Shown here piece after piece: positions 1 to 16,001 of a stretch of DNA of 37,199 nucleotides. The DNA lies in contig JAGHZW010000088.1 of the NCBI GenBank assembly GCA_017745195.1, positions 1,760 through 38,958 on the forward strand, given 5' to 3'. The position numbers were made by a program, and so were the translations under genes. Numbering within the stretch: position 1 is the stretch's first letter; each line of letters opens with the position of its first letter. A model generated the notes under the pieces. That model saw nothing but the letters and a program-made list of their open reading frames with translations. It was not told the origin of the DNA and did not search any database. The DNA comes from Pseudoxanthomonas sp. GTDB taxonomy: Bacteria > Pseudomonadota > Gammaproteobacteria > Xanthomonadales > Xanthomonadaceae.

Positions 1-1862
1 ATTGGATCCTGGTGGTCGCGCCGGCCAATGACCCGTCCGCCGGCCACGCGGTCACCGACGACAAGGCGCGCGGCATCCGCAACTACTTCTGGTCGCAGCG
101 GCCCGACACGCTGCTGTACCTGCGCGACAACGGCGGCGACGAGGACTTCCACCTGTACGCGGTGGACCTGGCCAGCAACCAGACCCGCGACCTCACCCCG
201 TTCCCGAAGACCACCGCGATGGTGGTCAGCGTCAGTCCTACCCAGCCCGACAGCATCCTGGTCGGCATGAACGACCGCGACCCCAAGTGGCACGACCTGT
301 ACCGCGTCGACCTGGCCAGCGGCACGCGCACCCTGGTCGAGAAGAACACGCAGGAGATCGCCGGTTACATCGCCGATGGCGACTACAACCTGCGCTTCGC
401 CCAGCGCTCGCGCCCGGACGGCGGCATGGACATCCTCAAGCGCGCCGGCGCCGCCTGGGAGAAGGCCGACGACGTGCCGTTCAAAGACGTGCTCACCACC
501 AACGTGCTGGGCCTGACCAACGACGGCAAGACCCTGTACCTGTCCGACTCGCGCAACCGCAATACCGCCGCGGTCTATGCGATCGACAGCGCCAGCGGCC
601 AGCGCAACCTGCTGGCCGAGGATGCGCGCGCCGACATCGGAGGCGGCCTGGCCGATCCTCGCACCGGACAGCTGCAGGCGGTATCGGTCGACTACCTGCG
701 CCAGGAATGGAAGCCGCTCGGCGACGCGCTGACCGCCGACCTCAAGACGCTCGAAGGCATCGGTCCGGGCGAAGCGAACATCAACGCGCGCACGCTCGAC
801 GACAAGACCTGGATCGTCGCCTACTCGGCCGCCGAATCGCCGGTGGTCTACTACCGCTACGACCGCACACCCGGCGCCGAAGGCAAGCTGACCAGACTGT
901 TCTCCTCGCGCCCGGCGCTGGACGGCAAGCCGCTGGCGCCGATGTGGCCGCAGGAGATCAAGTCGCGCGACGGCCTGACCCTGCCCAGCTACCTCACCCT
1001 GCCGGTGCAGTCCGATCCCGATGGCGACGGCAAGCCCAACGCGCCGGTGCCGATGGTGCTGCTGGTCCACGGCGGCCCGTGGGCGCGCGACGACTACGGC
1101 TACAGCAGCTGGGACCAGTGGCTGGCCAACCGCGGCTACGCGGTGATGCTGGTCAACTACCGCGGCTCGACCGGCTTCGGCAAGGCGTTCACCAATGCCG
1201 GCGATGGCGAGTGGGCCGGCAAGATGCACGACGACCTGATCGACGCGGTGCAGTGGGCGGTCGGCCAGGGCATCACCACCGCCGACAAGGTCGCGATCAT
1301 GGGCGGCAGCTACGGCGGCTACGCCACGCTCGCCGGCCTGACCTTCACCCCCGACACCTTCGCCTGCGGCGTGGACATCGTCGGCCCGTCCAACCTCGCC
1401 ACGCTGCTGGCCACCGTGCCGCCGTACTGGGCCAGCTTCTACGAGCAGCTGGCCCGGCGCATGGGCGACCCGCGCACCGAGGAAGGCAGGAAGTGGCTGA
1501 CCGAGCGCTCGCCGCTGACCCACGCCGACAGGATCGTGCGGCCGCTGCTGATCGGCCAGGGCGCCAACGACCCGCGGGTGAAGCAGGCCGAGAGCGACCA
1601 GATCGTCGAGGCGATGAAGGCCAAGAACATCCCGGTCACCTACGTGCTGTTCCCCGACGAGGGCCACGGCTTCGCCCGCCCGGAGAACAACAAGGCCTTC
1701 AACGCGATCACCGAGAACTTCCTCGCCAAGTGCCTGGGCGGCCGCGCCCAGCCGATCGGCGAGGACCTGAAGGGGTCGAGCGTCACCGTGCCCACCGGCG
1801 CCGACGGCGTCGAGGGCCTGGGCGCGGCGCTGCAGGCGCACACGCAGGACGTGCGGAAGTAA
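1..1862 (+). CDS. S9 family (prolyl oligopeptidase) peptidase, 5'-truncated
   Basis: This is the C-terminal 620 or so residues of a serine peptidase of family S9. The frame is open through the left edge (codons begin at base 3), so the true start and any signal peptide lie outside the window. The first half fits the beta-propeller region that limits substrate access. The second half is an alpha/beta-hydrolase domain with an HGGP oxyanion motif near base 1070. The catalytic triad is visible: Ser in GGSYGGY (codon 1308-1310), Asp in GANDPR (1569-1571) and His in DEGHGF (1665-1667). Family members cleave short peptides, often in the periplasm of Xanthomonadales. A 60-residue tail after the hydrolase core has no recognised motif. 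The gene converges with the dehydrogenase gene downstream, and a strong hairpin separates them. The family call is secure; the substrate is unknown. Confidence 0.93.
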   Translation, partial: WILVVAPANDPSAGHAVTDDKARGIRNYFWSQRPDTLLYLRDNGGDEDFHLYAVDLASNQTRDLTPFPKTTAMVVSVSPTQPDSILVGMNDRDPKWHDLYRVDLASGTRTLVEKNTQEIAGYIADGDYNLRFAQRSRPDGGMDILKRAGAAWEKADDVPFKDVLTTNVLGLTNDGKTLYLSDSRNRNTAAVYAIDSASGQRNLLAEDARADIGGGLADPRTGQLQAVSVDYLRQEWKPLGDALTADLKTLEGIGPGEANINARTLDDKTWIVAYSAAESPVVYYRYDRTPGAEGKLTRLFSSRPALDGKPLAPMWPQEIKSRDGLTLPSYLTLPVQSDPDGDGKPNAPVPMVLLVHGGPWARDDYGYSSWDQWLANRGYAVMLVNYRGSTGFGKAFTNAGDGEWAGKMHDDLIDAVQWAVGQGITTADKVAIMGGSYGGYATLAGLTFTPDTFACGVDIVGPSNLATLLATVPPYWASFYEQLARRMGDPRTEEGRKWLTERSPLTHADRIVRPLLIGQGANDPRVKQAESDQIVEAMKAKNIPVTYVLFPDEGHGFARPENNKAFNAITENFLAKCLGGRAQPIGEDLKGSSVTVPTGADGVEGLGAALQAHTQDVRK

Positions 1863-1873
1863 CTGTCACGAAG

Positions 1874-1898
1874 GCGGGCGCCGGAGTCCGGCGCCCGC
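1874..1898. terminator. GC-rich hairpin between convergent genes
   Basis: Perfect 12-base inverted repeat (1874-1885 and 1887-1898) around a single centre base; as RNA it would form a stem of about 10 bp with a short loop. It lies 12 bases after the S9 peptidase stop and 3 bases from the stop of the facing dehydrogenase gene, so it could end transcription from both sides. Neither strand has a U-tract, so intrinsic termination is not assured. Confidence 0.55.
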
Positions 1899-1900
1899 TG

Positions 1901-3070
1901 CTATGGCTGCCAGACCGTGCCGAGCGGATCGAGCTCCATCGTGTCCATCGTCCCGCCGCGCCAGCCGAAGCCGCAGACGGCGAGGACGCCTTCGTTCATC
2001 GGGTCCAGGCCCAGAGCCTCGTCCAGGCACGTCTCGTTGATCGCGCACGTCACGTAGGCGGCCAGGCCGGCCTCGGTGGCCGAGAGGTACAACGTCTGCG
2101 AGAGGTGGCCCGCCTCCAGCAGGACCGCGCGGTAGGCCTTCGCGTGCTGGCGGTATTTCCAGAAGTTCCGCGCATAGCGCGGGGCCATGATCGCGAGCAC
2201 GTGGGCATCGGCGAACCAGGTCTGGCCGGCGACGGCCTCGCACATGAGCTTTTCCAGCGGCATTGCGGGATCGGGCAGGCGGCCCAGCGCGTGCTCAATG
2301 GGGTCGTAGTAGTAGATCCCGGGGTCCAGGCCGGTCACGTCCCTGACCACGACAAAGGCATCCACCGGGTGAAGCCCGCCCCCCGAAGGGCAGTTCTTCT
2401 TCAGGAATACCGTATCAGGCGTCACGGATACCACCGCCTGCGCCGCGAACACGCGCTCGAGAACCTGGGTCAGCGACGCCAGCGGAAGTGCCCGTGATCG
2501 ATCAAAGTTGCGGCACGTAGCCCTCCGCCTGAGCAGGTCGTCGAAGCCGTTCAACGCACTTCGCTGCAACGCGACCTTGGAGACGAGGTCGTCACGAATG
2601 GCGCGTTCCGGCGGCGGCGGTCCCAGAACGTCCCGCAACTTGTCTGCCGTTTCCGTGCCCGTGCTCTGCATGGCCTCGACGGCATCCACCCCGTTCCAGC
2701 GGGTCAGGCCGTGTGCAAGGGCCGAGAGTGGATGCCAGTGGCTGCGCCTGAGTGCCTCGTCCCTTGCGCGGAATGGATCGTCGGGTCCCGCCTGATCGGC
2801 AAGGACCAGTCCCCGGTCGATGAGCTCCTTCAGCTTCGGCTGCCACTCGTCCGGCAGGTCGGCCGGTTCGCTCCATTGCTCGGGGCTGAGACCGCCAATG
2901 ACCTCGCGGGCCAATGCATCCACCACATGCTCAGCGCCCAGGTGTGGTGCCAGGGCGATCCAGGAGCGAACACGCCTGGCGCCTGTCCCGCCGGCGAGAA
3001 GATCATCCAGGTCGAAAGTGACCTCCTCCCTGGATTCGAGATAGAGCACCTTGCACCGGCGAACCCTCAT
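1901..3070 (-). CDS. SagB/ThcOx-like putative peptide maturation dehydrogenase
   Basis: A 389-residue flavin-type dehydrogenase of the nitroreductase superfamily, closest by eye to SagB-type enzymes, which oxidise azolines to azoles in ribosomal peptide products. The N-terminal 170 residues are a helical region without clear motifs. The flavoprotein domain follows: an RRRATCRNF segment, then CPSGGGLHPVDAF and GIYYYDP (SagB equivalents are PSAGGLYP and GLYHYDP), then AYRAVLLEAGHLSQTLYL and a C-terminal GFGWRGG. I recall a computational family of exactly this type (TIGR04511) found beside a putative modified peptide and a cyclase, as here. I chose the ATG at 3070 because GAGGAAGG sits just upstream; an in-frame ATG at 3085 has a poorer ribosome-binding site. 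No YcaO cyclodehydratase is present, so the reaction may not be azoline oxidation. The gene is divergent from the peptide gene, 78 bases away. Confidence 0.85.
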   Translation of the reverse strand: MRVRRCKVLYLESREEVTFDLDDLLAGGTGARRVRSWIALAPHLGAEHVVDALAREVIGGLSPEQWSEPADLPDEWQPKLKELIDRGLVLADQAGPDDPFRARDEALRRSHWHPLSALAHGLTRWNGVDAVEAMQSTGTETADKLRDVLGPPPPERAIRDDLVSKVALQRSALNGFDDLLRRRATCRNFDRSRALPLASLTQVLERVFAAQAVVSVTPDTVFLKKNCPSGGGLHPVDAFVVVRDVTGLDPGIYYYDPIEHALGRLPDPAMPLEKLMCEAVAGQTWFADAHVLAIMAPRYARNFWKYRQHAKAYRAVLLEAGHLSQTLYLSATEAGLAAYVTCAINETCLDEALGLDPMNEGVLAVCGFGWRGGTMDTMELDPLGTVWQP

Positions 3071-3121
3071 GCCTTCCTCTTTCATGCGACGCGTTTCCCG
3101 TTAAGCTTCGCTGCGAAACCA

Positions 3122-3142
3122 CCCCTGACGGGTGGTCAGGGG
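3122..3142. promoter_or_regulatory. Inverted repeat covering the peptide gene's ribosome-binding site
   Basis: CCCCTGAC (3122-3129) and GTCAGGGG (3135-3142) are perfect 8-base complements with a 5-base spacer. The right arm contains AGGGG, the likely Shine-Dalgarno sequence 6 bases before the peptide ATG at 3149. If transcribed, the hairpin would hide the ribosome-binding site. As DNA, the dyad in a 78-base divergent promoter region is a plausible operator. An alternative pairing CCACC/GGTGG (3119-3123 with 3131-3135) is mutually exclusive with it. Confidence 0.55.
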
Positions 3143-3148
3143 AAACCG

Positions 3149-3469
3149 ATGTCCGATCCGAACCAGGGGGCCGCACCGGCTCCCCTCGCTCCCGAAGTCG
3201 CCGACCGCCTGCTCGACCTGCTGGCAAGTGATGACGAATTCCGGGATCTCTTCGCTCGAGACCCCGCGGCGGCGCTGGTCAAGGCCGGCTACGACCCCGG
3301 CGCGGCAGAAGACCTCAAGCTGCTCCATTCCCGCCTGAAGGTCGGAGGCCTGGCTTCCAAGGACGCCATCGCCTCGGCGCGCGACGAGATCCGCTCGTCG
3401 CTGACCTCGGGCTTGGGCATGCAGCCGATCCTGCTCAATATCCAGTCAAAGGGCACGCGCGACGCGTAA
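3149..3469 (+). CDS. Putative modified peptide (NHLP/Nif11-like leader) precursor
   Basis: A 106-residue small protein that looks like a ribosomal natural-product precursor. Residues 12-65 form an acidic, helical leader with LASDDEFRDLFARDP, which resembles Nif11/nitrile-hydratase-like leader peptides. KVGG follows at residues 64-67, a typical double-glycine cleavage site. The remaining 39 residues would be the core: rich in Ser, Ala and basic/acidic pairs, with GLGMQPILLNIQ near the end. There is no cysteine anywhere, so thiazole or lanthionine formation is excluded; Ser and Thr remain possible sites. I recall the family TIGR04509 (putative modified peptide), whose neighbours match this locus. 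The ATG at 3149 is chosen for its AGGGG ribosome-binding site and the leader motif; the frame is open upstream but unlike protein. The stop lies 2 bases from the stop of the facing cyclase gene. Confidence 0.82.
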   Translation: MSDPNQGAAPAPLAPEVADRLLDLLASDDEFRDLFARDPAAALVKAGYDPGAAEDLKLLHSRLKVGGLASKDAIASARDEIRSSLTSGLGMQPILLNIQSKGTRDA

Positions 3470-3471
3470 CC

Positions 3472-6027
3472 TCACTTTGCCTGGGCCGGCGGCAGTCTCG
3501 TCATTTCCAACCGCCGCTCCAGCACGTCCCGGTCACCAGCCGCCGCGGCCAGCGCGGTGGCGTGGCGCTCGGCGAGCCGGGCATCGACCACGTTGAGAGC
3601 CTGCTGGCACCACGCACAGCCATACTCCGCGTAGGCCCGCCCCCTGTTACCTGCAAGCCAGCGGGCCTGTGCGAGCGCGGCGTCGGCTTCACCTGCAGCC
3701 ATGTAGGCCTCCATCAGGGCGACCCTGGCCTGCAGCGGCTCTGTTCCGTCGACGATGGCATTGAGGGAAGCGATCGCCTCGTTCGGTTTTCCTGCGAGGA
3801 TCAGCCGGCGGGCCGCCAGCACCGTGGCGAGGGATTTGACCGGCTGGATCGAGGCCAGTCTGTCGTTCTCCTTCAGCGCCGCCGAGACGGCCGCGGCCGG
3901 TGACGGGTCGCCCATCCGCTGCGCCAACAGCGCGGCATGCAAGGCTAGCGTTGCATCGTCACGCTGGTCCATGCCGCTGGTGGGCTGCCGCGCGGCCGTC
4001 AGGGCAGCGTCGACCGCCGACCGCAACACCTGCTTCGAAGTGTCCGCGTCCCCCATCGCCCAGAGTGCGACCGCCAGCGGGAGATAGCTCTGGCGGAAGC
4101 GGGCGGCATCCTTGACCGCCCTTGCATGTACCCGATCCGCCTCGGCCCTCGCGAGGCGCCACTTCCCTTCGTCGAGGTACATCGACACGCGTTCGAAGTA
4201 GGTCAGCTTGAGCTGGTCGTCGGACGGCCAAAGCTTCTCCGCTGCAGCGAAGTCTCCTGCTGCCGCCAATGCTGCGACCTGCCAGATCCGCATGCCCGGC
4301 GTGCCGGTATCACCGGCGGACGACAGGATCCGCCGGGCCTCGTCGAACTCGCCGCGTGCCAGGCGGAGCCGACCCAGAAGCTCCATGGAAACCTGCGCGA
4401 ACTCGCTCTGCTTGACCGCCGCACGTGAAGCAAAGTCCAGCGCCTGCCCGTAACTGTTGTGGACCTCGAGCGCGAAGGCGGTGTTGGTCAGCGCGGGAAA
4501 ATAATCGGGATACATCTTCGCCATCTGCATCCAGGCATCGGCGGCATGCTCTGGATCTTCCAGCTGCACCACCCACGCGTCGAGATAGACCTGGTCTCTT
4601 CCCTTCAGGTTCGCCCGCAGTTCCTGGGCCTTCCTGAGGTATGGCATTCCCTCCGCCTGCTGGTCCAGCACGTTGTAGGCCCGCATGACGCCGATATGGG
4701 CCAGCGCGAACTCGGGATCGAACGAGATCGCCCGCTTGTAGAAATCCCTGGCTTGGACGTAGTTGCCCGTTCCGTAGGCTTCCTGGCCCAGGGCGTAAGC
4801 CCGAAGGGCATCCAGGCTCCGCGTCGCCACTTGCGGAAGGGGTTTGGAATCCTTCGAGAGTGCAACGCTGCCTTCGCCCAGCGCCGATCGCAACGACGCC
4901 GTAACCTCGTCGATCGATTCGAGGGTCGATTCCATCCCGACCCCATGCGCCGAGGTGGAGAACAAGGTCTCCCTCGTCCGCGGATCGACGAGTTCCAGGC
5001 TGACATGAACCTGGCCGCCCACCTCCGATACCGAAGGGAGGACCAGGCCAAGCGCGCCGTCGCGAATCGCCACTTCGGATCCGACCTCGCGATCCACCAG
5101 CGCGAGCATCGGACGCCCCATGCGCGAGAGGGTATCCCGCACTTTCAGCTCCGACAGCACGTTGATATGCCGCGACTGCTCCAGGCTCAGCCGGAACGCC
5201 TGTTCCAGCGAATCGTCCAGCACGGTCTGGCCGGTGAGGTTGCGCAGGTCGCCCACCACCACCCAGTCGCGCTCGGCGAAGGCGATCGCCGGCTCAGGGC
5301 GGGTCATGAACCAGCCGCCGACGACCAGGCCGACCACGGCGGCCGCTTCGGCGGCCAAGGCGAGGGGATGCCGCCACGCCGGAACATCGCGCCGCGCCTT
5401 GGCGTCGCCGCGCGGCGCGCGCAGCGGGGCCAGGCCCGGTTCGCCCACTTCATGTATTTCCTGCGGCTTGGGCACGCCCTTGAACAGCCAGCGGCCGTGG
5501 GTACGCCATTGCAACGCGTCGCCGCGCTCGCCCAGATCGCTTGCCGAGCGCCGCAGCAACGGCTCGGCCACCGACGACAGCAGGATCTGCCCGGGTCGGG
5601 CCAGGTGCATCAGCCGCGCGGCGAAGGGCTTGGCCAGGCCTTCCACTTCCACCTGCTTGGCGCCGGCGTCCACCGCCTCCTGGCTGTTGCGCCAGATCAG
5701 CACTTCGCCGACGTGCAGGCCTGCGCGCGCCAGCATCGGCCCGATGCGGTGCGCGCGGCCCAGCGCATCCAGGCCACGGCGGTAGTCCAGGGCAAAACCG
5801 AGGCCGTCGAGCGGGCGCTCGAACAGCATCAGCAGTCCGTCGGAGCGGTCGATCAGGCGGCCACGCCAGCGCTGCTGCAACTCCAGCACCAGCCGGTCGT
5901 GGTCGCGGAACAGGGCGGCGGCGACGCTGTCGCCCAGCTTCTCGACCAGGCTGGTCGAGTCGCACAGGTCGGTCAGCAGCAGGGTCCGCAGCTGCGGTGC
6001 ACGGGCATCGTGTGGCATGCCGTCCAT
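3472..6027 (-). CDS. Putative peptide modification system cyclase: class III cyclase-like, membrane segment, TPR region
   Basis: An 851-residue protein. Residues 10-190 resemble a class III adenylate/guanylate cyclase domain: LLLTDLCDST with Asp20, RSDG with Asp63, AARL with Arg138, and a closing LFKGVPKPQEI strand. By eye the two metal-binding Asp are kept, but the substrate-selecting Lys position is not Lys, and the Asn four residues before Arg138 is Pro134, so activity is uncertain. Residues 221-241 form one probable transmembrane helix after a basic stretch. Residues 252-370 resemble the TolB-like domain often attached to such cyclases, and 390-830 form a TPR-like helical repeat region, probably outside the membrane. 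The architecture and neighbours match the family I recall as TIGR04510. The gene follows the GGDEF gene by 9 bases, so they are probably cotranscribed. The ATG at 6018 is an alternative start. Confidence 0.82.
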   Translation of the reverse strand: MDGMPHDARAPQLRTLLLTDLCDSTSLVEKLGDSVAAALFRDHDRLVLELQQRWRGRLIDRSDGLLMLFERPLDGLGFALDYRRGLDALGRAHRIGPMLARAGLHVGEVLIWRNSQEAVDAGAKQVEVEGLAKPFAARLMHLARPGQILLSSVAEPLLRRSASDLGERGDALQWRTHGRWLFKGVPKPQEIHEVGEPGLAPLRAPRGDAKARRDVPAWRHPLALAAEAAAVVGLVVGGWFMTRPEPAIAFAERDWVVVGDLRNLTGQTVLDDSLEQAFRLSLEQSRHINVLSELKVRDTLSRMGRPMLALVDREVGSEVAIRDGALGLVLPSVSEVGGQVHVSLELVDPRTRETLFSTSAHGVGMESTLESIDEVTASLRSALGEGSVALSKDSKPLPQVATRSLDALRAYALGQEAYGTGNYVQARDFYKRAISFDPEFALAHIGVMRAYNVLDQQAEGMPYLRKAQELRANLKGRDQVYLDAWVVQLEDPEHAADAWMQMAKMYPDYFPALTNTAFALEVHNSYGQALDFASRAAVKQSEFAQVSMELLGRLRLARGEFDEARRILSSAGDTGTPGMRIWQVAALAAAGDFAAAEKLWPSDDQLKLTYFERVSMYLDEGKWRLARAEADRVHARAVKDAARFRQSYLPLAVALWAMGDADTSKQVLRSAVDAALTAARQPTSGMDQRDDATLALHAALLAQRMGDPSPAAAVSAALKENDRLASIQPVKSLATVLAARRLILAGKPNEAIASLNAIVDGTEPLQARVALMEAYMAAGEADAALAQARWLAGNRGRAYAEYGCAWCQQALNVVDARLAERHATALAAAAGDRDVLERRLEMTRLPPAQAK

Positions 6028-6036
6028 CCCCGTGCC

Positions 6037-7074
6037 TCAGGTCGCCGGCACGCCGGCGCCATCGATCCAGAACGCGCGGTTGCCGCCCTGTCGCTTGGCT
6101 TCGTACAGCGCCGCATCGGCGCGGGCATACCAGTCGTTCCAGTCCTGCTCCGGCTCGACCAGGCAGGCGCCGACGCTGACCGGGCAGATCGTCGGCACCT
6201 GCTGCTGCAGCAGCAGCAGGTTGCGCGTGGCGGCGACCACGAAGTCGGCGTAGCGCATCACGTCCTCGCGCTTCTGCGCCGACACCAGCAGGCAGAACTC
6301 GTCGCCGCCCAGGCGGCAGGGCACGTCTTCGGCACCGGCGACCGAGCGCAGGATGCCGGCGATGTTCTGCAGCACGCGGTCGCCGATCAGGTGGCCGTGG
6401 TCGTCGTTGACCTGCTTGAAGCGGTCGCAGTCCACCAGCACCAGGCCCATCGCCTCCTGGTTGCCGAGCCGGCGGCATTCCTGCAGGTGCAGGGTCAGGC
6501 CGCGGCGGTTGTACAGGCCGGTGAGCTCGTCGGTGCGGATCAGCTCTTCGGTCTGGTTGAGCTGGTGGGTGGTGGCGTAGAGGTTGTCGAGCGCCGTCTC
6601 CAGGTCCTGGTTGCGGCGGCGCAGCTGGCGGATCAGGCTCTGCTCGTTGAGCACCACGCGGGTGATCGAGCGGCGCAGGAACTGCGCCACCAGGCCGGGG
6701 TCACGTTCGACCAGGCGCTGGAATTCCTCTTCGCCCAGCTCCACCAGGCGGCCGTCGGTGACGGCCACCGCGTCGGCGCTGCGGGTGTGCTCGCCGATCA
6801 GCAGGCCCAGCTCGCCGAAGAACTCCTGCGGGCCGAGCTGCTTGGTCGCCAGGTCGTTGCCGAAGTCCAGCTCGACCCGGCCGTCGGCGATGACGTACAT
6901 GAGTTCGCCCGCATCGCCGCGGCGGAAAACACGCTCGCCGGCATGCACCGCGCGATCGTGGCCGACCGCGGCGAACAGGTTGAATTCGCGCATGGCCAAG
7001 GCGGCACCCGCGCCGGCGCCACCTTCCTGGTCGATCTTGTCTCGGACGTTGCGTGTCACGCCGTCGCTCGACAT
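6037..7074 (-). CDS. Cyclic-nucleotide-binding GGDEF diguanylate cyclase
   Basis: A 345-residue soluble sensor-output protein. Residues 32-135 form a cyclic-nucleotide-binding (CAP-like) domain, with the phosphate-binding cassette FFGELGLL..HTRSADAV at 85-104. A helical linker (143-180) leads to a GGDEF domain (182-340) with an intact RLGGDEF at 254-260, so synthesis of c-di-GMP from two GTP is expected. The inhibitory I-site RxxD is absent: the equivalent positions read GAED, so product inhibition through that site is unlikely. The frame stays open upstream, but I chose the ATG at 7074 because GGGAG precedes it and the upstream translation looks non-coding. Its stop is 9 bases before the cyclase start. 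That suggests an operon in which a cyclic nucleotide made by the cyclase is sensed here (inference). Confidence 0.88.
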   Translation of the reverse strand: MSSDGVTRNVRDKIDQEGGAGAGAALAMREFNLFAAVGHDRAVHAGERVFRRGDAGELMYVIADGRVELDFGNDLATKQLGPQEFFGELGLLIGEHTRSADAVAVTDGRLVELGEEEFQRLVERDPGLVAQFLRRSITRVVLNEQSLIRQLRRRNQDLETALDNLYATTHQLNQTEELIRTDELTGLYNRRGLTLHLQECRRLGNQEAMGLVLVDCDRFKQVNDDHGHLIGDRVLQNIAGILRSVAGAEDVPCRLGGDEFCLLVSAQKREDVMRYADFVVAATRNLLLLQQQVPTICPVSVGACLVEPEQDWNDWYARADAALYEAKRQGGNRAFWIDGAGVPAT

Positions 7075-7512
7075 CCCACGGCTCCCGTACCCGGCCCCCC
7101 CCGGGTGAAGGGCGAGCATACCATTGGCCCGCGTACGGGACGGCGGGGCAGCGACCATGGCGGAGCGACCGGCCATCGGGTCGTGGCGGCCGCCCTGGAT
7201 GCGGGTCGCGGATCGCCGGGCCGGATGATGGGCCTCGCGTGGCCGGACCGGGCCGACCGGATGACTGCCCGGATGCGGCGATCCGCACGAGCGGCAGCCG
7301 ATCACCTCGCCTTCGGGCGTGCGCAGGCGCACCGATCCGCCTGGACCGTGGCGCCCGGGGGCGCGGTCATCTGTCGCCGGACCAGCCGCCGACGGATCGC
7401 GCGGGCACAGACAACCTGCTCGCATTCCATCCCCCATGTCGCCAGCAACGGCGACTCCTGAATGGGTGAACGCCGGAACGCGACGGTGACGGCCAGCGCC
7501 GCCACACCCCCT
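7075..7512. other. 438-base gap upstream of the GGDEF gene, with a C8 tract
   Basis: I see no convincing gene. Open frames on both strands have irregular codon use and low-complexity translations. Just upstream of the GGDEF start, a run of eight C (7095-7102) is flanked by ACCCGG (7089-7094) and CCGGGT (7101-7106), which together form a small hairpin. The promoter of the GGDEF-cyclase operon should lie here, but no clear -10/-35 pair stands out. Confidence 0.5.
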
Positions 7513-7534
7513 AAAAAAACGGGTGCGCCCGTTT
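7513..7534 (-). terminator. Rho-independent terminator of aceBA
   Basis: Read on the minus strand, AAACGGG, a 4-base loop and CCCGTTT are followed by a run of T (bases 7513-7519 are A on the plus strand). This is a classic intrinsic terminator about 60 bases after the aceA stop. Confidence 0.8.
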
Positions 7535-7550
7535 CCGGGTGCACCCGCAA

Positions 7551-7580
7551 CCCCGGTCCGCTTCTCCCGTCGGACCGGGG
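7551..7580 (-). terminator. Second hairpin in the aceA 3' region
   Basis: Perfect 10-base arms CCCCGGTCCG (7551-7560) and CGGACCGGGG (7571-7580) with a 10-base loop, 16 bases after the aceA stop. It has no T-run of its own. It could stabilise the 3' end of the message or assist the terminator downstream. A 12-base palindrome (7536-7547) lies between the two hairpins. Confidence 0.5.
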
Positions 7581-7596
7581 ACCGTGCCGCCCGGCC

Positions 7597-8889
7597 TCAG
7601 GCCGCGGCGCGATCGTGGAACTGTTCTTCTTCGGTCGAGCCCTTCAGCGCGGTGGTCGAGGACTGGCCCTGCTGGATCGCCTGGGTCACCTGGTCGAAAT
7701 AGCCGGTGCCGACCTCGCGCTGGTGCTTGACCGCGGTGAAGCCCTTTTCGGCGGCGGCGAACTCGGCCTCCTGCAACTCGACGAAGGCGCTCATCTGCCG
7801 GCGCGCGTAGCCGTGGGCCAGGTTGAACATCGAGTAGTTCAGCGCGTGGAAGCCGGCCAGGGTGATGAACTGGAACCTGTAGCCGTAGCTGGCGATTTCC
7901 TTCTGGAACTTGGCGATCGTCGCGTCATCCAGGTTCTTCTTCCAGTTGAAGCTGGGCGAGCAGTTGTAGGCCAGCAGTTTGCCCGGGTACTTGGCATGGA
8001 TCGCCTCGGCGAACTTGCGGGCGAACTCCAGGTCCGGCTTTCCGGTCTCGCACCAGACCAGGTCGGCGTACGGCGCGTAGGCCAGGCCGCGGCTGATCGA
8101 CTGCTCCAGGCCGTTGCGGACCTTGTAGAAGCCTTCGACGGTGCGCTCGCCGGTGCAGAACGGCTTGTCGTTGTCGTCCACGTCGGAGGTCAACAGGTCG
8201 GCGGCCTCGGCGTCGGTGCGCGCCACCAGGAGCGTCGGCACGCCCAGCACGTCGGCGGCCAGGCGCGCGGCGTTGAGCTTCTCCACTGCCTCCCGGGTCG
8301 GCACCAGCACCTTGCCGCCCATGTGCCCGCACTTCTTCACCGAGGCCAGCTGGTCCTCGAAGTGCACGCCGGAGGCGCCGGCCTCGATCATCGCCTTCAT
8401 CAGCTCGAAGGCGTTGAGCACGCCGCCGAAGCCGGCTTCGGCGTCGGCCACGATCGGCTGCAGGAAGTCGATGCTGTCGTCGCCCTCGGCATGGTGCAGC
8501 TGGTCGGCGCGCAGCAGCGCGTTGTTGATCCGGCGCACCACCGCCGGCACCGAGTCGGCCGGGTACAGAGACTGGTCCGGATACATCTGCCCGGCCAGGT
8601 TGGCGTCGGCGGCCACTTGCCAGCCGGACAGGTAGATCGCGTTCAAGCCGGCCTTGACCTGCTGCATGGCCTGGTTGCCGGTCAGCGCGCCGAGCGCGTT
8701 GACGAAGTCCTTCTCGTGCAGGTAGCGCCACAGCTTCTGCGCGCCGAGCTTGGCGATCGAGTGCTCGACCGGAATCGTGCCGCGCAGGCGGACCACGTCG
8801 GCGGCGGTGTAGTTGCGGGTGATGCCGGCCCAGCGCGGGTCGGTGTTCCATTCGTGCTGGATCTGCTCGGCGGTCTTCAGCGTGGTCAT
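7597..8889 (-). CDS. aceA: Isocitrate lyase
   Basis: Cleaves isocitrate to succinate and glyoxylate, the first step of the glyoxylate shunt, in the cytoplasm. The protein is 430 residues, the usual length for the enterobacterial-type enzyme. The active-site signature KKCGHMGGK lies at residues 185-193, with the catalytic Cys at 187. Other family segments include [19 protein letters not shown] near residue 89, [11 protein letters not shown] near 146, and [11 protein letters not shown] in the C-terminal half. I chose the ATG at 8889 because the frame's upstream extension runs into the aceB-aceA gap and lacks conserved sequence; GGAG-type sequence precedes this start. It lies 34 bases downstream of aceB on the same strand, so the two are an operon. 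Two hairpins follow the stop. Confidence 0.97.
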
Positions 8890-8923
8890 GGCGTTCTCCG
8901 TGGGGTGTTCTGGGCGGCCGGCA

Positions 8924-10630
8924 TCAGTCGATGCGGGCATAGGCGGGCAGGGTCAGGAAATCGACCAGCTGGCAGGCGCGGGTCAGTTCGTCGAGCAAGG
9001 CGATGGCCTCGGCAATCCGCGCGCCGCCGGGCAGCGTCGCGGTATCGCCGAGCCGGCCCGGCAGCGCGGCCAGGGTCCGTTCGAACAGGGCGAAGTCGAT
9101 CACCGTGCCGTCGGCCAGGTGCACCGGGCTTCCATCGGCGTGGCGGCCGCGCGGGTCGGAGTGGTGCAGCCACTGCCACAGCTGCGCGCGGGCGATCTCG
9201 GCGGTGGCCGCGTCCTCCATCAGCCAGTGGATCGGCACGCAGCCGTTGCCGTCCAGCCAGGCGGCCATGTAGCGCACGCAGACCTCGACGTTGTTCTCGA
9301 AGCCTTCGCGGGTGATCGTGCCGGCGCTGGGGCGGATCAGCTCGTCGCGACCCGCGTTCGCGTCCTCGCGCAGCACGTGGTGCTGGTGCGGCGTGGGCAT
9401 GTGCGCATCGAAGATCTCGCGCGCCACCGGGATCAGCGCCGGGTGCGCCACCCAGGTGCCGTCGTGGCCGGCGCTGACCTCGCGCAGCTTGTCGGCGCGC
9501 ACCCGCGCCAGTGCCTGTTCGTTGGCCGCCTCGTCGCCGGCGATCGGGATCTGCGCGGCCATGCCGCCCATCGCGTGCGCGCCGCGGCGGTGGCAGGTGC
9601 GGATCAGCCGTTCCGAATAGGCCTTCAGGAACGGCTGGGTCATGGTCACCTGGCCGCGCTCGGGCAGCACCCGGTCGGCATGCGCGCGAAAGGTCTTCAG
9701 GTAGGAAAAGATGTAGTCCCAGCGCCCGCAGTTCAGGCCGACGATGCGGTCCTTCAGCGCGTGCAGGATCTCGTCCATCTCGAACACCGCCGGCAGCGTC
9801 TCCACCAGCACGGTGACCTTCATCTGCCCGTGCGGCAGGCCCAGCATCGCTTCGACATGGGAAAGCGCGGTTTCCCACAGCGCCGCCTCTTCCATCGACT
9901 GCAGCTTGGGCAGGTAAAAGTACGGGCCGCGGTCATTGGCCATCAGCGTGCGCGCGTTGTGCCAGGCGAACACGGCCATGTCGAACAGGCCGCCGCAGAT
10001 CGGCTCGCCGTCGATGCGCACGTGCTTCTCGTCCAGGTGCCAGCCGCGCGGGCGCACGATCAGCACCGCGCGCTCCTCGTACGGGCGCAGCCGGTACTGC
10101 TTGCCGTTGTCGCCCTCGAAGGCGAGCGTGCCGGCCACCGCGGCGGCCAGCGCACGCTGGCCGGCCAGCAGGTTGCGCCAGGTCGGCGCGGTGGAATCCT
10201 CGAAGTCGGCCATGTAGCACTGCGCGCCGGAGTTGAGCGCGTTGATCACCATCTTCGGGTCGGTCGGGCCGGTGATCTCGACGCGGCGGTCCTGCAGCGC
10301 GCGCGGGATCGGCGCGACGGTCCAGTCGCCCTCGCGGAGGGCGCGGGTATCGGCGCGGAAGTCGGGCAGGCCACCGGCGTCGAAGAAGGCCTGGCGTTCG
10401 CGGCGCGCGGCGAGGCGGGCGCGGCGCTCCGGCTCGATCGCCCGGTGCAGCGAGACCAGCAGGCCCAGCAGCGGCGCCGGCAGCAGCTGCTCCTGGCCGG
10501 CGACGCGCTCGGTCAGCGCGAGCCCGGCGGCCGCGCGGGGCACCGCGGCAATGGGCGGACGGCTGGCCGGACGGGGCGAGGACGGGGCGTTCGCGGCGGA
10601 ACTGCTGGGCGTGGCGGCGATGGCGGACAT
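8924..10630 (-). CDS. aceB: Malate synthase A
   Basis: Condenses glyoxylate with acetyl-CoA to give malate, the second step of the glyoxylate shunt. The protein is 568 residues. Residues 1-40 are a Ser/Ala/Pro-rich extension not typical of the family; the conserved enzyme begins around residue 45. Recognisable segments are [65 protein letters not shown] and the C-terminal MEDAATAEI that carries a catalytic Asp. The ATG at 10630 has AGGAG 8 bases upstream. The gene is first in an aceBA operon and divergent from a LysR-type regulator across 116 bases. Confidence 0.97.
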
Positions 10631-10746
10631 GGCAGGCTCCTGGCTGCTTGGTGCGGAGCCCACGCTGCATCGCGTCAAACTATTTGACAAAACAGTTTTG
10701 GCAATGTGTTCTATAAGTTCAACTGATAAACAGGCACAACCATTCC
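10631..10746. promoter_or_regulatory. Divergent aceBA / LysR control region
   Basis: An AT-rich 116-base region between divergent genes. It contains GTCAAA-CTA-TTTGAC (10674-10688), a perfect 6-base inverted repeat, followed directly by CAAAAC-A-GTTTTG (10688-10700), a second one sharing one base. A TTGACA element (10684-10689) overlaps the first repeat and could serve the regulator gene, but no well-spaced -10 is obvious. These dyads are the best operator candidates for the adjacent LysR protein. Confidence 0.6.
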
Positions 10747-11709
10747 ATGTCGCCTGCCGCAAGCCCCCGTTTTTCCTATAAATCCGACCGACTCAAACCG
10801 CTGCGGGCGTTCTGCCAGACGGTCCGTCTGGGCTCGGTTTCGCGCGCCGCGGACGCCCTTTTCGTCAGCCAGCCGGCCATCACCCTGCAGCTGCAGGCGC
10901 TGGAACGGGACCTGGGCGTGCCGTTGCTGGAGCGCAACGGCCGGCGCCTCCTGCCGACCCGCGAGGGCGAGGTCCTGTACGAGATGGCCCTGCCGCTGGT
11001 CGAGCAGATCGACGGGCTGGAGGCCGCCTTCCGCGAGCGGGTGCAGGGCCTGGACGCCGGCGAGCTGAAGATCGCCGCCAACAGCTCCACGATCCTCTAC
11101 CTGCTGCCGCGGATCGTGGCGGCGTTCCGCGCCCGCCATCCGGACGTGCGCCTGACCCTGACCAACGTGGTGACCAGCGAGGGCACCGACCTGCTGCGCG
11201 AGGACGCGGTCGACCTGGCGGTGGGCACCCTGCTCGACGTGCCGGCCGACCTCAGCTACGAGGCCGCCTACCGCTTCGAGCAGCGACTGATCGCTCCGCC
11301 CGGCCATCCGCTGCTGAAGAAGGCGCGGTTGGAGCTGGCCGACCTGGCCGGCTATCCGCTGATCCTGCCGCCGAAACGGCAGGTCACCTGGCGCCTGGTC
11401 GACCTGGTGCTGCAGCAGAACCGGGTGCCGTACACGGTCGCGCTGGAAGTCAGTGGCTGGGACGTGATCAAGCAGTACGTGGCGATGGGCATGGGCGTGT
11501 CGATCGTGCCCTCGATCTGCCTGGCCGAGAACGAGGGCGAACGCCTGGCCTCGCGCTCGCTGGCCGCGTTCTTCCCCTCGCGCAGCTATGGCGTGGTGGT
11601 GCGCAAGGGCCGCGTGCTGTCGCCGCAGGCCCGCGCCTTCATCGCCCTGATCAAGCCGGACCTGATGGCCCCGCGCGAGTATGACGAGGCCGGGCATTCG
11701 GAGCGCTGA
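10747..11709 (+). CDS. LysR-family transcriptional regulator next to aceBA
   Basis: A 320-residue LysR-type regulator. The winged helix-turn-helix spans about residues 17-75, with SVSRAADALFVSQPAITLQLQALE as the recognition region (cited here only by its ends, SVSRAA to QALE). The linker helix and a periplasmic-binding-protein-like effector domain (about 95-300) follow. The effector domain has WDVIKQYVAMGMGVSIVPS near residues 240-258, a CysB-like pattern. Its divergence from aceBA and the dyads in the shared promoter suggest control of the glyoxylate shunt, probably with autoregulation (inference). The ATG at 10747 is the first that includes the whole DNA-binding domain; its ribosome-binding site is weak. 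The effector is unknown. Confidence 0.92.
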   Translation: MSPAASPRFSYKSDRLKPLRAFCQTVRLGSVSRAADALFVSQPAITLQLQALERDLGVPLLERNGRRLLPTREGEVLYEMALPLVEQIDGLEAAFRERVQGLDAGELKIAANSSTILYLLPRIVAAFRARHPDVRLTLTNVVTSEGTDLLREDAVDLAVGTLLDVPADLSYEAAYRFEQRLIAPPGHPLLKKARLELADLAGYPLILPPKRQVTWRLVDLVLQQNRVPYTVALEVSGWDVIKQYVAMGMGVSIVPSICLAENEGERLASRSLAAFFPSRSYGVVVRKGRVLSPQARAFIALIKPDLMAPREYDEAGHSER

Positions 11710-11710
11710 G

Positions 11711-11738
11711 CGGCGCGGATCGCGAACGCACCGCGCCG
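11711..11738. terminator. Hairpin after the LysR gene
   Basis: CGGCGCGG (11711-11718) pairs with CCGCGCCG (11731-11738) around a 12-base loop. It lies one base after the regulator stop and 8 bases before the stop of the facing small gene, so it may act for both. There is no T-run. Confidence 0.45.
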
Positions 11739-11746
11739 GCGATGCG

Positions 11747-11914
11747 TCAGGACTTCCCGCCAGCGCCCGGCGTCGGCGTCGGCTTCTTCTTCGGCACGTC
11801 CGCGGCTTGCCCGTGCAGGCGCAGGCCGTACTGGTGGTCGTATTCGTACGCCCGGCGGCGCGATGTCGGCGCCGGTTTGGCGGGTGGTTTGCCCTTGTCG
11901 TCCTTGGTCGCCAT
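11747..11914 (-). CDS. Small basic hypothetical protein (55 aa)
   Basis: A Lys/Pro-rich protein of 55 residues beginning MATKDDKGKPPAKPAPTS and ending in a second Lys/Pro/Thr-rich segment. A short aromatic patch, YEYDHQYGLRLHG, sits in the middle. The ends look disordered, with no signal peptide or membrane segment. The ATG at 11914 follows GAGGCGGA at a reasonable distance. The frame extends further upstream, but that part reads as non-coding. The central patch between two charged disordered tails looks conserved in style, which is why I call it a gene. I do not recognise a function. Confidence 0.5.
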   Translation of the reverse strand: MATKDDKGKPPAKPAPTSRRRAYEYDHQYGLRLHGQAADVPKKKPTPTPGAGGKS

Positions 11915-12051
11915 CCGATTCCGCCTCGCGCGTGCCGCGCATTCCGCCTCGATGCAGGAGGCTACGGACATCGCCATGGCAACCGGCCAGAGGCGCCGCT
12001 TTGCGCGCCCGCGATGGCCGCCCGCGAGCTCGCCGCGCGGCTCGGCACCGA

Positions 12052-12690
12052 TCACAGCCTGCGCCAGCCTGGCCCTTCGCCGCTGCGCCAGTACACGGCC
12101 AGCGCGCGGGCGTAGATCGCGTCGGCCTCGACGAAGCCGAACCAGCGACCGTCGGCGCTGCGGCCGCGATGGTCACCCAGCACCAGCACGTAGCCGGGCG
12201 GCACCAGCACGCCGGCGATGTCGGGGCCGCCACCATCGGCCAGGTCCAGCCGGGCCACGCGCGTGCCGAAGCGCTCGGCATCGCGCTGCACCGTGTCGTC
12301 CATCGGCGCGCCGTTGATCGCCAGATGGCCATCGCGCAACTCGACCCGGTCGCCGGCCACTGCGACCACGCGCTTGATCAGCCGTGTGCCATCGGCCGGC
12401 GAGTCGAACACGACCACGTCGCCGCGCCGCGGCTGGTCGCGCTCGACCAGCACGTGGCGGGTGAACGGAACGCGCAGCCCGTAGGCGCTCATGTCCACCG
12501 CCACGCGATCGCCCGGCTGCAACGTCGGCTGCATCGAACCGCTGGGCACCAGGTAGTGGTTGGCGAACGAGGCGCGCGCGGTGCCGAGCAACAGCAGCAG
12601 GGCCAGCGTCGGCAGCACTTCGCGGCGCAGCCACAGGCGTGCGCGGCGCGCGCGTGAAGATTGCTGCGATGATTTCGGCAAGGCTTCCAT
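12052..12690 (-). CDS. lepB: Signal peptidase I (S26 family), short form
   Basis: Removes signal peptides from exported proteins at the outer face of the inner membrane. The 212-residue protein has a basic N-terminus and one transmembrane helix (about 22-43). The catalytic Ser is in VPSGSMQPT (Ser52), and the general-base Lys is in RLIKRVVAVAGD (Lys106). A late box reads LGDHRGRSADGR, a variant of the usual GDNRDNSxDSR. It is shorter than the two-helix E. coli LepB (324 residues) and is not beside lepA or rnc here, so it may be a second, specialised copy. The ATG at 12690 is the natural start. The gene is divergent from the membrane protein gene at 12851. Confidence 0.88.
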   Translation of the reverse strand: MEALPKSSQQSSRARRARLWLRREVLPTLALLLLLGTARASFANHYLVPSGSMQPTLQPGDRVAVDMSAYGLRVPFTRHVLVERDQPRRGDVVVFDSPADGTRLIKRVVAVAGDRVELRDGHLAINGAPMDDTVQRDAERFGTRVARLDLADGGGPDIAGVLVPPGYVLVLGDHRGRSADGRWFGFVEADAIYARALAVYWRSGEGPGWRRL

Positions 12691-12850
12691 CGATGGCTCC
12701 GGCGTGGGCGGACGACTCCCACGCTATCGCCGCGCGCGGCGTCGATCCACATGACCAACGACATGGATCGCGCATGGCCTGCGCCCGCCGCTTGACGGAC
12801 GCAGGCCGGAAGCCGCGCTATCGTGGGTGCCTGCCGCCAGGACGCCCCGC

Positions 12851-13570
12851 ATGCGCAACCTCGACTTCAGCTCGTGGTCCGGCCTGCTCACCACCCTGCT
12901 CGGGCTGGTGGTCGTGTCGCTGGTGGCCGTCGGTATCCGCCTGCTGTTCATGCAGACCCTGCAGCGCAAGCGCGAGCGCGAGAACCGGCAGATCAACGAG
13001 CGGTTGAAGACGCTGATCGCCGCCTACAAGACCCTCGGCGGCTCGTTCACCGGCGAGCTGAGCGTGGACCCGACCCACCTGCGCGACCGACACCGCGATG
13101 CGGAGGCGGACAATGCCGATGATCCCGGCACCGCGTCGGAACGGCGGCGCCGCATCCGCGACGCGGTCGAGGCCGCGCTGTCGGATGTGGTCCTGCTCGG
13201 TACCGAGGAACAGGTACGGCTGGCCGCGCAGGCCGCCAGCGACATGGTCGCCGGACGCAGGATCGAGACCGCCGCGCTGGTCGCGTCGCTGCGCGTGTTC
13301 ATCCGCCAGGCGCTGGACCTGGAACCGATCCCGGCTGGCCTGGCCATTCCCGGCCAGGGACCGCTGCGCGTGGTCGCCGGTGGTGGCGGCAAGCGCGGCG
13401 CCGACGGCGGCGACAAGTCGCGTACCGCGGGTGGCGGTGGCGGAGGAATGGGCGGAGGAATGGGCGGAGGGATGGGAGGCGGCATGGCGGCCGGAGCGGG
13501 GGCAGGCGCGGGCGCCGGCCTGGGCCAACAAGATACGGGCGACGACCTCGCCTCGCCGGGCCGGTCCTGA
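12851..13570 (+). CDS. Membrane-anchored protein with Gly/Met-rich C-terminus
   Basis: A 239-residue protein of unknown function. One transmembrane helix lies at about residues 10-33, followed by a basic stretch (QRKRERENR). A helical region of about 35-160 includes ERRRRIRDAVEAALSDVVLLGTEEQVRLA, which looks like a coiled or helical bundle (named here by its start ERRRRIRD and end EQVRLA). After about residue 175 the sequence becomes Gly-rich: four GGGM units (residues 197-212), then alternating Ala-Gly. The start at ATG 12851 puts the membrane helix near the N-terminus; an earlier in-frame ATG at 12827 adds eight residues. The gene is convergent with the VOC gene. The low-complexity tail may be disordered or self-associating (inference). 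Confidence 0.75.
   Translation: MRNLDFSSWSGLLTTLLGLVVVSLVAVGIRLLFMQTLQRKRERENRQINERLKTLIAAYKTLGGSFTGELSVDPTHLRDRHRDAEADNADDPGTASERRRRIRDAVEAALSDVVLLGTEEQVRLAAQAASDMVAGRRIETAALVASLRVFIRQALDLEPIPAGLAIPGQGPLRVVAGGGGKRGADGGDKSRTAGGGGGGMGGGMGGGMGGGMAAGAGAGAGAGLGQQDTGDDLASPGRS
13439..13486 (+). repeat. 12-base tandem repeat encoding GGGM
   Basis: Four in-frame copies of a 12-base unit: two identical GGCGGAGGAATG copies (13439-13462), then two diverged copies (13463-13486). They encode GGGM four times in the tail of the membrane protein. The repeat could expand or contract without shifting the frame. Confidence 0.85.
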
Positions 13571-13579
13571 TCGCCGCCG

Positions 13580-14736: not shown

Positions 14737-14781
14737 GGCGACGTGCCCGGCAAGGTCCGCCGATATGGGCCGCCAGGCCGA

Positions 14782-15924: not shown

Positions 15925-16001
15925 GTGGAACCTCGCGAGCGGCCGGAGGGAGCCTGATCCTACCCGGCGCGCGTCATGCAACCGTGACGCCGTCCAGCGG
16001 C

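Follow-up and report, generated by a model that had tools for sequence, protein, structure and literature searches.

What signal is received by a guanylate cyclase with a TPR sensor whose gene adjoins those for a small precursor-like peptide, a SagB-like dehydrogenase and a diguanylate cyclase? This arrangement is found in a 37,199-nucleotide stretch of Pseudoxanthomonas sp. DNA (the window), with all four genes within positions 1901-7074. A first-pass annotation had placed the genes side by side with these identities and the GGDEF gene 9 bases upstream of the cyclase gene, and the coordinates and the NCBIfam and Pfam matches agree with it (the gap is 6028-6036). The features are as follows.

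1901..3085, reverse strand: SagB-like FMN nitroreductase-fold dehydrogenase (TIGR04511), putative peptide maturase; TIGR04511, TIGR03605, PF00881 (Nitroreductase, 80.6 bits), WKYR motif
3149..3469, forward strand: NHLP-type precursor-like peptide, 106 aa (TIGR04509); profile match
3191..3406, forward strand: peptide residues 15-86, helical leader-like part; AlphaFold2 model, mean pLDDT only 68.2
3407..3466, forward strand: peptide C-terminal tail, residues 87-106, candidate core; without secondary structure, pLDDT ~55, differs between types
3472..6027, reverse strand: transmembrane guanylate cyclase with TPR sensor (TIGR04510), XC_0250 orthologue; profile, model and residues
5428..6000, reverse strand: class III nucleotidyl cyclase domain, residues ~10-200, constant part of the cyclase; structural matches, same-genus identity
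5308..5364, reverse strand: single transmembrane helix of the cyclase, residues ~222-240; hydrophobicity, flank charge
4858..5271, reverse strand: alpha/beta domain of the cyclase, residues ~253-390, predicted periplasmic; model secondary structure
3508..4815, reverse strand: TPR-like superhelix of the cyclase, residues ~405-840, predicted periplasmic, hypervariable sensor; model, TPR matches, variability
6037..7074, reverse strand: CNB-GGDEF diguanylate cyclase, XC_0249 orthologue; Pfam, 5h5o match, residues
6700..6951, reverse strand: cyclic-nucleotide-binding domain of the CNB-GGDEF protein, residues 42-125; PF00027 (cNMP_binding, 66.9 bits)
6076..6534, reverse strand: GGDEF domain of the CNB-GGDEF protein, residues 181-333, motif intact; PF00990 (GGDEF, 130 bits)

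The NCBIfam profile search gave 544.8 bits for the dehydrogenase with TIGR04511 (cut-off 240), 1099.5 bits for the cyclase with TIGR04510 (cut-off 400) and 80.4 bits for the peptide with TIGR04509 (cut-off 34), confirming the memberships that the annotation had proposed. The window thus holds all three members of the set, over cut-off and in adjoining genes; the NCBIfam families themselves are named without a described function and leave out the GGDEF partner and the link to cGMP. The profile scores and the adjacency of the GGDEF and cyclase genes are far beyond chance. No RNA family match was found in the window with Rfam.

The structure model of the cyclase (pLDDT 86.8) matches Rv1900c, Ma1120 and the guanylyl cyclase Cya2 in its cyclase domain. 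By model and residues the protein is a class III nucleotide cyclase; we rejected its reading as a peptide cyclase and consider it unlikely that it modifies the peptide, as the name "peptide modification system cyclase" implies. In Xanthomonas campestris, XC_0250 was reported to make cGMP, not cAMP, and XC_0249 to be a diguanylate cyclase that binds cGMP and is activated by it, the pair being noted as adjacent in other xanthomonads too (An et al. 2013, PMC3770947). The XC_0250 residues D41, D71, L73, A150, L157 and A161 are all present (6/6) in the window cyclase and stand at identical numbers (6/6) in the Xanthomonas-like locus L052; over 107 loci they were conserved in 107, 107, 97, 107, 87 and 105 cases, respectively. 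The best solved-structure match of the CNB-GGDEF protein was 5h5o, taken as XC_0249 because 7/7 published residues fit its numbering. The cGMP contacts F73, E90, H98, N145 and E146 of XC_0249 are found 5/5 in the window protein and in 99, 100, 100, 96 and 100 of 100 cases, respectively, and the GGDEF motif is kept in 100/100. The two genes are likewise adjacent in the window, and their catalytic and cGMP-contact residues are shared with the Xanthomonas pair; as judged from sequence, they are orthologues of XC_0250/XC_0249, with cGMP and c-di-GMP activities predicted.

The second-messenger layer, which the annotation had believed undescribed, is therefore already published for XC_0250/XC_0249 (PMC3770947), and what is new here is the mosaic described below. 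The published work differs in that, in the parts used here, it leaves the TPR part uncharacterised and gives no ligand; its main text contains no word starting with "peptide" and no "dehydrogenase", XC_0248 or XC_0251. Biofilm formation of an XC_0250 mutant was restored by the cyclase domain alone (PMC3770947), which makes the TPR part dispensable for output; a 2019 review lists it as a domain of uncharacterised function (PMC8042644). Our literature searches turned up nothing published on the half of the locus made up of peptide and SagB, and the papers listed in one of them did not mention XC_0251 or XC_0252.

The transmembrane helix of the cyclase showed a hydrophobic peak of at least 1.57 in 107/107 loci (at least 1.6 in 106), and its N-terminal flank was the more positive in 107/107. 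Because there is one such helix with positive-inside charge, the TPR part is predicted to be extracytoplasmic. The alpha/beta domain (residues ~253-390) presumably resembles the TolB N-domain. The predicted order of extracytoplasmic sensor, single transmembrane helix and cytoplasmic cyclase fits a receptor guanylate cyclase, and the TPR cyclase is probably a receptor. The peptide-receptor guanylate cyclases of animals also have an extracytoplasmic sensor, one transmembrane helix and a cytoplasmic guanylate cyclase; the likeness is one of working only, with no homology claimed, and their N-to-C order is opposite to that of the window cyclase with its TPR-type sensor.

For comparison across the family, 99 main loci were hand-picked, best scores first, from ~155 listed places of 240 genomes over cut-off; because the best-scoring places were listed first, weak members are under-sampled. 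L201-L210 were chosen as odd or low-scoring SagB cases, and L001-L003, being duplicates or a frameshifted record, were excluded. A contig search with the window cyclase as query gave 3 loci only. As the annotation had it, the GGDEF gene is fixed beside the others: it lies directly upstream of the cyclase gene, on the same strand, in 99/99 Xanthomonadaceae loci (a count leaving out L125, a 3.7 kb contig ending inside the cyclase), and is missing beside some copies among the variant and outside loci (L201, L202, L207 and L212).

The genes are also lost jointly. We hand-picked 51 near-complete family genomes without a full TIGR04510 match from the 155 of 395 genomes lacking a match over cut-off. 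Among the 51, TIGR04511 exceeded its cut-off in none and the GGDEF protein was present in 5, in 4 of them directly beside aceA, while the neighbouring isocitrate lyase was found in 48. In the same-genus locus L158, the peptidase and aceA adjoin and the whole unit is absent. In all 13 loci without the unit taken from these genomes (L158-L170), aceA, aceB and lysR remain together and the GGDEF gene is gone with the rest, and we therefore rejected synteny alone as the cause of the GGDEF linkage. Besides the locus and ace-lysR genes, 12 gene families recur in at least 5 genera in the neighbour survey; the 10 that were scanned contained no peptide exporter, and no dedicated one was seen. C39-peptidase proteins occur in 17/19 genomes tested and are absent from the locus-carrying G017 and G118. 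A defence system was also rejected, PADLOC giving generic CNB matches only (best 29.1 bits).

The SagB-like dehydrogenase matches TIGR03605 with 116 bits, and the W-K-Y of its WKYR motif is kept in 96/96 full-length relatives. The peptide was found by profile in 99/101 loci, the remaining two being contig ends, and the profile matches are consistent with the annotation's "leader-type peptide". Considered as a candidate RiPP precursor, the peptide shows in its AlphaFold2 model, at low confidence, a helical NHLP body and a loose tail without structure. The window peptide lacks the cysteine common to most relatives' peptides, and no export signal was recognised on it. Ordinary synthesis of a TOMM (thiazole/oxazole-modified microcin) was rejected, since no YcaO-type cyclodehydratase was found by PF02624 in the genome itself (87.6% complete) or among the window genes read. 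The SagB-like dehydrogenase would be the most likely enzyme to mature the peptide. The Os1348 cluster of Pseudomonas sp. Os17 (PMC7726476) likewise combines an NHLP-clan small protein with a SagB-type dehydrogenase, without a SagC/SagD homologue; it differs in having an acetyltransferase, a HEXXH protein, efflux genes and an antibiotic phenotype, and no cyclase is mentioned in the part of that paper used here.

In comparisons of close relatives, little change is seen in the GGDEF protein or the guanylate-cyclase (GC) domain, while the TPR part (predicted to be periplasmic), the peptide and SagB drop to 20-40% identity, with changes that largely coincide. Between the same-genus loci L091 and L203, AceA is 98%, the GGDEF protein 99% and the GC domain, S9 and LysR each 100% identical, against 24% for the TPR part and 35% for SagB; in the DNA, a 3.7 kb block has been replaced between ~99% identical flanks. 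Of 141 same-genus pairs with at least 90% identical GC domains, 87 had TPR parts below 40%; these come from 9 genera, two of which contribute 47 and 22, and same-genus pairs are not independent.

We quantified the pattern with partial Mantel tests with species controls on 97 loci, omitting 10 of 107 with missing genes (L040, L048, L058, L077, L090, L098, L109, L129, L208 and L210). Where a locus encoded more than one peptide, we took that closest to the cyclase; the "peptide C-terminal part" begins at the LASK motif (window residue 68) and takes in everything after it, last helix included. The correlations were 0.73 between the peptide C-terminal part and the TPR part, 0.67 between SagB and the TPR part and 0.64 between the GGDEF protein and the GC domain, compared with 0.15-0.21 across the two blocks; with one locus per genus (25 genera), the values were 0.72 vs 0.10. 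The correlation steps at the membrane, from 0.12-0.15 in the GC domain and transmembrane helix to 0.62-0.66 in all four TPR quarters, with intermediate values in the alpha/beta domain (0.26-0.36). Controlling for SagB and the leader part still left 0.45 between the peptide C-terminal part and the TPR part. We set aside a division in which the leader follows SagB and the tail follows the TPR part, as it is only weakly supported (leader with SagB 0.28 vs leader with TPR 0.21); in same-genus pairs with different TPR and similar SagB (n=21), the leader had diverged too (median identity 0.31).

In the Gram-positive pherotype loci agr and comQXP, a polymorphic sensor, pre-peptide and maturase are swapped as one block onto a constant output. 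Loci of the window type show this pattern, with polymorphic sensor, peptide and maturase candidate exchanged as a block and the output constant, but differ in their Gram-negative host, guanylate-cyclase receptor, NHLP-type precursor and SagB-type putative maturase. The joint swapping of peptide, enzyme and sensor half, with the signalling half constant, is what one would expect were the peptide the signal sensed by the cyclase. On balance, we lean towards reading the locus as a signal circuit that senses a peptide and carries an exchangeable specificity cassette. In this reading, the NHLP-type peptide would be matured, with the SagB-like dehydrogenase as the most likely enzyme, and would leave the cytoplasm; the peptide or its C-terminal part would then bind the cyclase at its predicted periplasmic TPR part. 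This would set, in one direction or the other, how active the guanylate cyclase domain in the cytoplasm is; cGMP would bind the CNB domain on the adjacent GGDEF protein and raise c-di-GMP, which may in turn control biofilm and other social traits. The annotation had proposed that the peptide feeds cAMP/cGMP and then c-di-GMP; the mosaic lends this evolutionary evidence, and the XC_0250 product is cGMP, not cAMP (PMC3770947). Its interpretation as a whole is partly supported, the exception being the second-messenger layer, which had been described before.

The 3' ends of the peptide and cyclase genes abut. The TPR end, peptide and SagB are contiguous, and such a block, if it recombines as one, would give a correlation by linkage alone; part of the mosaic pattern may be due to physical linkage. 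We think it unlikely that linkage explains the whole, with diversifying selection acting on the TPR part for some other reason, an external ligand or a phage, while peptide and SagB hitch-hike in the shared recombining tract. The contiguity of the block, the intermediate alpha/beta domain, as from a fuzzy recombination edge, and the similarity of SagB in 35/110 same-genus pairs with differing TPR parts would all suit such hitch-hiking, but the correlation stays level across all four TPR quarters, with no fall with distance from the peptide gene, and between peptide C-terminal part and TPR it survives control for SagB and leader. Moreover, the peptide switches type rather than merely drifting, and all the genes are lost together in the genomes tested.

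Toxin systems, too, typically have polymorphic cassettes, and the matured peptide might be a polymorphic bacteriocin-like product, with the TPR cyclase sensing own or rival peptide and triggering a protective biofilm. The polymorphism is compatible with this, as are the peptide arrays (at least 2 peptide genes in 10/99 loci with a match, 4 in L133) and the effect of the Os1348 cluster on antibiotic activity in Pseudomonas sp. Os17 (PMC7726476). We give this antagonistic role a small chance, however, as no immunity or export gene was recurrent in the neighbour survey (10/12 families scanned), the PADLOC matches are generic, and the output described in print is signalling in biofilm formation and virulence. 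Finally, a peptide that stays in the cell as a small regulatory subunit of SagB or the cyclase, with SagB acting on a small molecule as the true signal, would agree with the lack of a recurrent exporter in the same scan, the lack of a YcaO partner in the 87.6% complete genome and the crystallisation of the related Os1348 as a stable dimer (PMC7726476), but is quite improbable given the precursor-like disordered variable tail on a helical NHLP body (low-confidence model) and a co-variation with the predicted periplasmic TPR part that is unexpected for a cytoplasmic partner.

Returning to the peptide-sensing circuit, its fullest form would be a Xanthomonadales peptide pheromone of a new Gram-negative kind, in which a transmembrane receptor guanylate cyclase has as its cognate ligand an NHLP peptide matured by SagB, several exchangeable sensor types exist per genus, and strains of one type share a cGMP to c-di-GMP decision, giving kin-restricted biofilm or group behaviour. 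We regard this as a serious possibility, somewhat short of an even chance. The mosaic joins two literatures that we found separate in our searches. It gives a concrete candidate ligand, encoded next door, for the best-studied cGMP pathway in any bacterial pathogen and predicts type-specific recognition, and the question of the signal is therefore open to direct test. If true, the proposal would mean that a large Gram-negative family has a peptide-pheromone layer, and would provide a bacterial counterpart of the peptide-receptor guanylate cyclases.

Profile searches confirmed the four-gene observation at 1901–7074 and the three families named in the first-pass annotation, all matched above cut-off, and the gap between the GGDEF and cyclase genes was 9 bases, as stated there.

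Genes of the putative peptide-modification locus
1901–3085, minus strand: SagB-like dehydrogenase; TIGR04511, 544.8 bits, over the NCBIfam cut-off
3149–3469, plus strand: peptide, 106 residues; TIGR04509, 80.4 bits, over the NCBIfam cut-off
3472–6027, minus strand: TPR cyclase; TIGR04510, 1099.5 bits, over the NCBIfam cut-off
6037–7074, minus strand: CNB-GGDEF protein; Pfam cNMP_binding and GGDEF

The W, K and Y of the SagB WKYR motif were kept in 96/96 full-length relatives; in TOMM dehydrogenases, K–Y forms the catalytic pair. The window's own genome yielded no YcaO partner. The peptide contains no cysteine and also matched the Os1348 model, below its cut-off (30.7 bits vs. 40). For the peptide half, the closest precedent comes from Pseudomonas sp. 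Os17: its Os1348 cluster, in the sections of the source consulted (PMC7726476), influences antibiotic activity and contains a SagB-type dehydrogenase alongside an NHLP-clan protein, with neither SagC nor SagD. In the model of the cyclase (pLDDT 86.8), the cyclase domain is of class III, with Rv1900c and Ma1120 as its best matches and the guanylyl cyclase Cya2 matching also.

Further segments of the cyclase model
Residues 221–242: single helix
Residues 253–385: alpha/beta domain
Residues 405–842: long TPR-like superhelix

A hydrophobic segment lay at the helix position in 107/107 loci (mean at least 1.6 in 106) and its more positive flank was on the cyclase side in all 107, by which prediction the TPR part should be periplasmic. 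The peptide model, a weak one (mean pLDDT 68.2), has helices over residues 15–86 and then a loose tail.

Of 395 genomes from the family Xanthomonadaceae, 240 had a TIGR04510 match above cut-off. We fetched 100 loci around such matches and, excluding one from the window's own genome (L125), found the CNB-GGDEF gene directly upstream of the cyclase on the same strand in 99/99; SagB was present in 96, the three misses being contig ends. With the window included, a profile search recovered the peptide in 99 of 101 loci (two misses, again contig ends), 10 of them with at least two peptide genes. Outside the family, the GGDEF gene adjoined the cyclase in seven of the eight fetched loci with a visible cyclase (L152, L211, L214–L218), the exception being L212, while L213 was too short to count; of ten atypical loci from within the family, seven had it and L201, L202 and L207 did not. 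The conserved GGDEF neighbour that the annotation proposed to survey thus held throughout the main sample but not in these four loci, and the linkage is strong, not absolute. TIGR04511 occurred in 121 of 398 genomes drawn from the order Xanthomonadales, spread over five families, and in 5 of 369 drawn from the class Gammaproteobacteria, four from this family and one from another family of the same order.

The unit usually sits next to aceA-aceB-lysR, with aceA beyond the GGDEF gene in 94/99 loci. The window genes flanking the locus at 7597–11709 are putative isocitrate lyase, malate synthase and LysR regulator genes, and this order was retained in 13/13 fetched loci without the four-gene unit. 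Of the 51 near-complete genomes examined that lack a full cyclase match, none had SagB above cut-off (fragments remain in G175), 5 had the GGDEF protein and 48 had AceA. In L158, from the window's own genus, 187 bases separate the S9 peptidase gene from aceA and the whole unit is missing between them. Decayed SagB, peptide and S9 remnants lie at 9580–10531 of L171, from G175, a genome that has lost the cyclase.

Several variants were seen besides. A 3747-base contig of the window's own genome (G000:C4; loci L125 and L005) carries a second SagB-peptide-cyclase cassette adjoining an S9 3' end whose encoded segment is 92% identical to the S9 protein of the window; either the locus has been duplicated, or the assembly includes a different strain's allele of it. 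L201 (genome G022) is strongly expanded over 622–17562: SagB and the cyclase are each present in several copies, peptide genes are numerous, and the CNB-GGDEF neighbour is missing. At 3858–18513 of L210, about 13.5 kb of what looks like an inserted element splits the SagB gene, the cyclase and GGDEF genes alongside being otherwise intact. In loci L203–L206, from three genera, the peptide takes a second form, 78 residues long, accompanied by a divergent SagB in opposite orientation, and a second cyclase-like gene lies on the far side of SagB in L104 (5272–7008) and L119 (6454–8868). Elsewhere in the window, 24901–31020 holds in a row epimerase, AMP-binding, alpha/beta hydrolase and ketoacyl-ACP-synthase-III-like genes, presumably an ole-type long-chain olefin cluster, and two M16 peptidase genes lie at 17607–22112 and 31575–34439.

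The annotation had proposed that the peptide could provide the input to cyclic-nucleotide and then c-di-GMP signalling; the direction of this proposal was supported, and the signalling pair itself is already in print. In Xanthomonas campestris, according to the consulted parts of An et al. 2013 (PMC3770947), XC_0250 synthesises cGMP, and XC_0249 binds cGMP at 0.29 µM, which switches on its diguanylate cyclase activity; biofilm and virulence depend in part on both proteins. Since the published mutant regained biofilm with just the cyclase domain (PMC3770947, same parts), the TPR part modulates at most. The window genes are orthologous to this pair: among solved structures, 5h5o matches the CNB domain of the window best and its numbering fits 7/7 published XC_0249 residues, and the five tested XC_0249 contact residues are all in the window and each in 96–100 of 100 loci. 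In L052, a Xanthomonas-like locus, the six tested XC_0250 residues keep their numbering, and the window likewise has all six. XC_0253, a dipeptidyl aminopeptidase with a lipoprotein signal in the consulted part of PMC6341742, corresponds to the S9 gene that comes after SagB in the window, and we therefore infer that XC_0251 and XC_0252 are the peptide and SagB genes. Neither tag was found in the literature searched, and An et al. do not mention XC_0251, peptide or dehydrogenase in their main text.

Comparison within a genus divides the locus into two parts. L091 and L203, from a genus whose GGDEF proteins are 86–97% identical to 5h5o, share 98% identity in AceA, 99% in the GGDEF protein and 100% in the cyclase domain, against 41% in the alpha/beta domain, 24% in the TPR part and 35% in SagB, and are 100% identical in S9 and LysR. 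Compared in 150-base windows, their DNA is 97–100% identical until position 9237 of L091, which falls within the cyclase gene close to the TM segment; identity is 33–57% beyond it and again 97–100% from 12987, the start of S9. L205 and L129, from another genus, gave the same shape (92–97%, 37–69% and 82–93%), and pairs of the same type, such as L128–L103 and L126–L129, had no such drop. Across 107 loci of 27 genera, cyclase domains were at least 90% identical in 141 same-genus pairs, and TPR identity in these was below 40% in 87, 40–60% in 25 and at least 60% in 29; the 87 pairs come from 9 genera, yet 47 and 22 are from two of them. One genus had six TPR types among ten loci and another six among 11. 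Of the 92 loci that had two or more partners from their own genus, 8 had their best TPR match, peptide included, in another genus. The TPR part, peptide and SagB are exchanged as a block; of 110 same-genus pairs that differ in the TPR part, 35 retain similar SagB proteins.

Partial Mantel tests on 97 loci, controlling for AceB and LysR, gave the same two blocks: an output block of GGDEF protein and cyclase domain and a specificity block of TPR, peptide and SagB. The C-terminal part of the peptide correlated with TPR at 0.73 and SagB at 0.65, the cyclase domain and GGDEF protein giving 0.15 and 0.21. SagB–TPR remained at 0.67 with the cyclase domain and GGDEF protein also controlled, GGDEF protein–cyclase domain at 0.64 with TPR controlled, and GGDEF protein–TPR at 0.155 with the cyclase domain controlled. 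When each of 25 genera was represented by a single locus (30 draws), the medians for the C-terminal part of the peptide were 0.72 for TPR and 0.10 for the cyclase domain. Part of this correlation would be expected from linkage alone, as TPR part, peptide and SagB lie next to one another and the 3' ends of the peptide and cyclase genes abut. Along the cyclase, however, the correlation was 0.12–0.15 for the cyclase domain and TM segment, 0.26–0.36 for the alpha/beta domain and 0.62–0.66 for each TPR quarter; such flat values over the quarters count against simple decay, although a functionless block swap could still fit them. For the C-terminal part of the peptide, the correlation with TPR was still 0.45 once SagB and the leader part were also controlled.

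As for export, a Pfam scan of 10 of the 12 other neighbouring families, those in at least 5 genera, found no recurrent peptide exporter near the loci, the sole transporter being a sodium/proton exchanger in 8 loci. Proteins with a C39 peptidase were present in 17 of 19 genomes tested and absent from G017 and G118, both carriers of the locus. Haft et al. 2010 described NHLP precursors with, in the consulted part, one branch lacking the usual export genes (PMC2887384).

The mosaic tying peptide to sensor is new, as far as the literature searched shows. In peptide-pheromone specificity loci, a polymorphic sensor, a precursor-like peptide and a likely maturase are swapped together on a constant output, and the present locus resembles them in exchanging its polymorphic sensor, peptide and likely maturase together while its output stays constant. 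By this analogy, SagB would mature the peptide, which would be exported and bind the TPR sensor, with an effect of either sign, and the ligand state of the sensor would set cGMP and then c-di-GMP. The matured peptide is thus most likely the ligand of the TPR sensor, in a circuit that would be read out as cGMP and then c-di-GMP.
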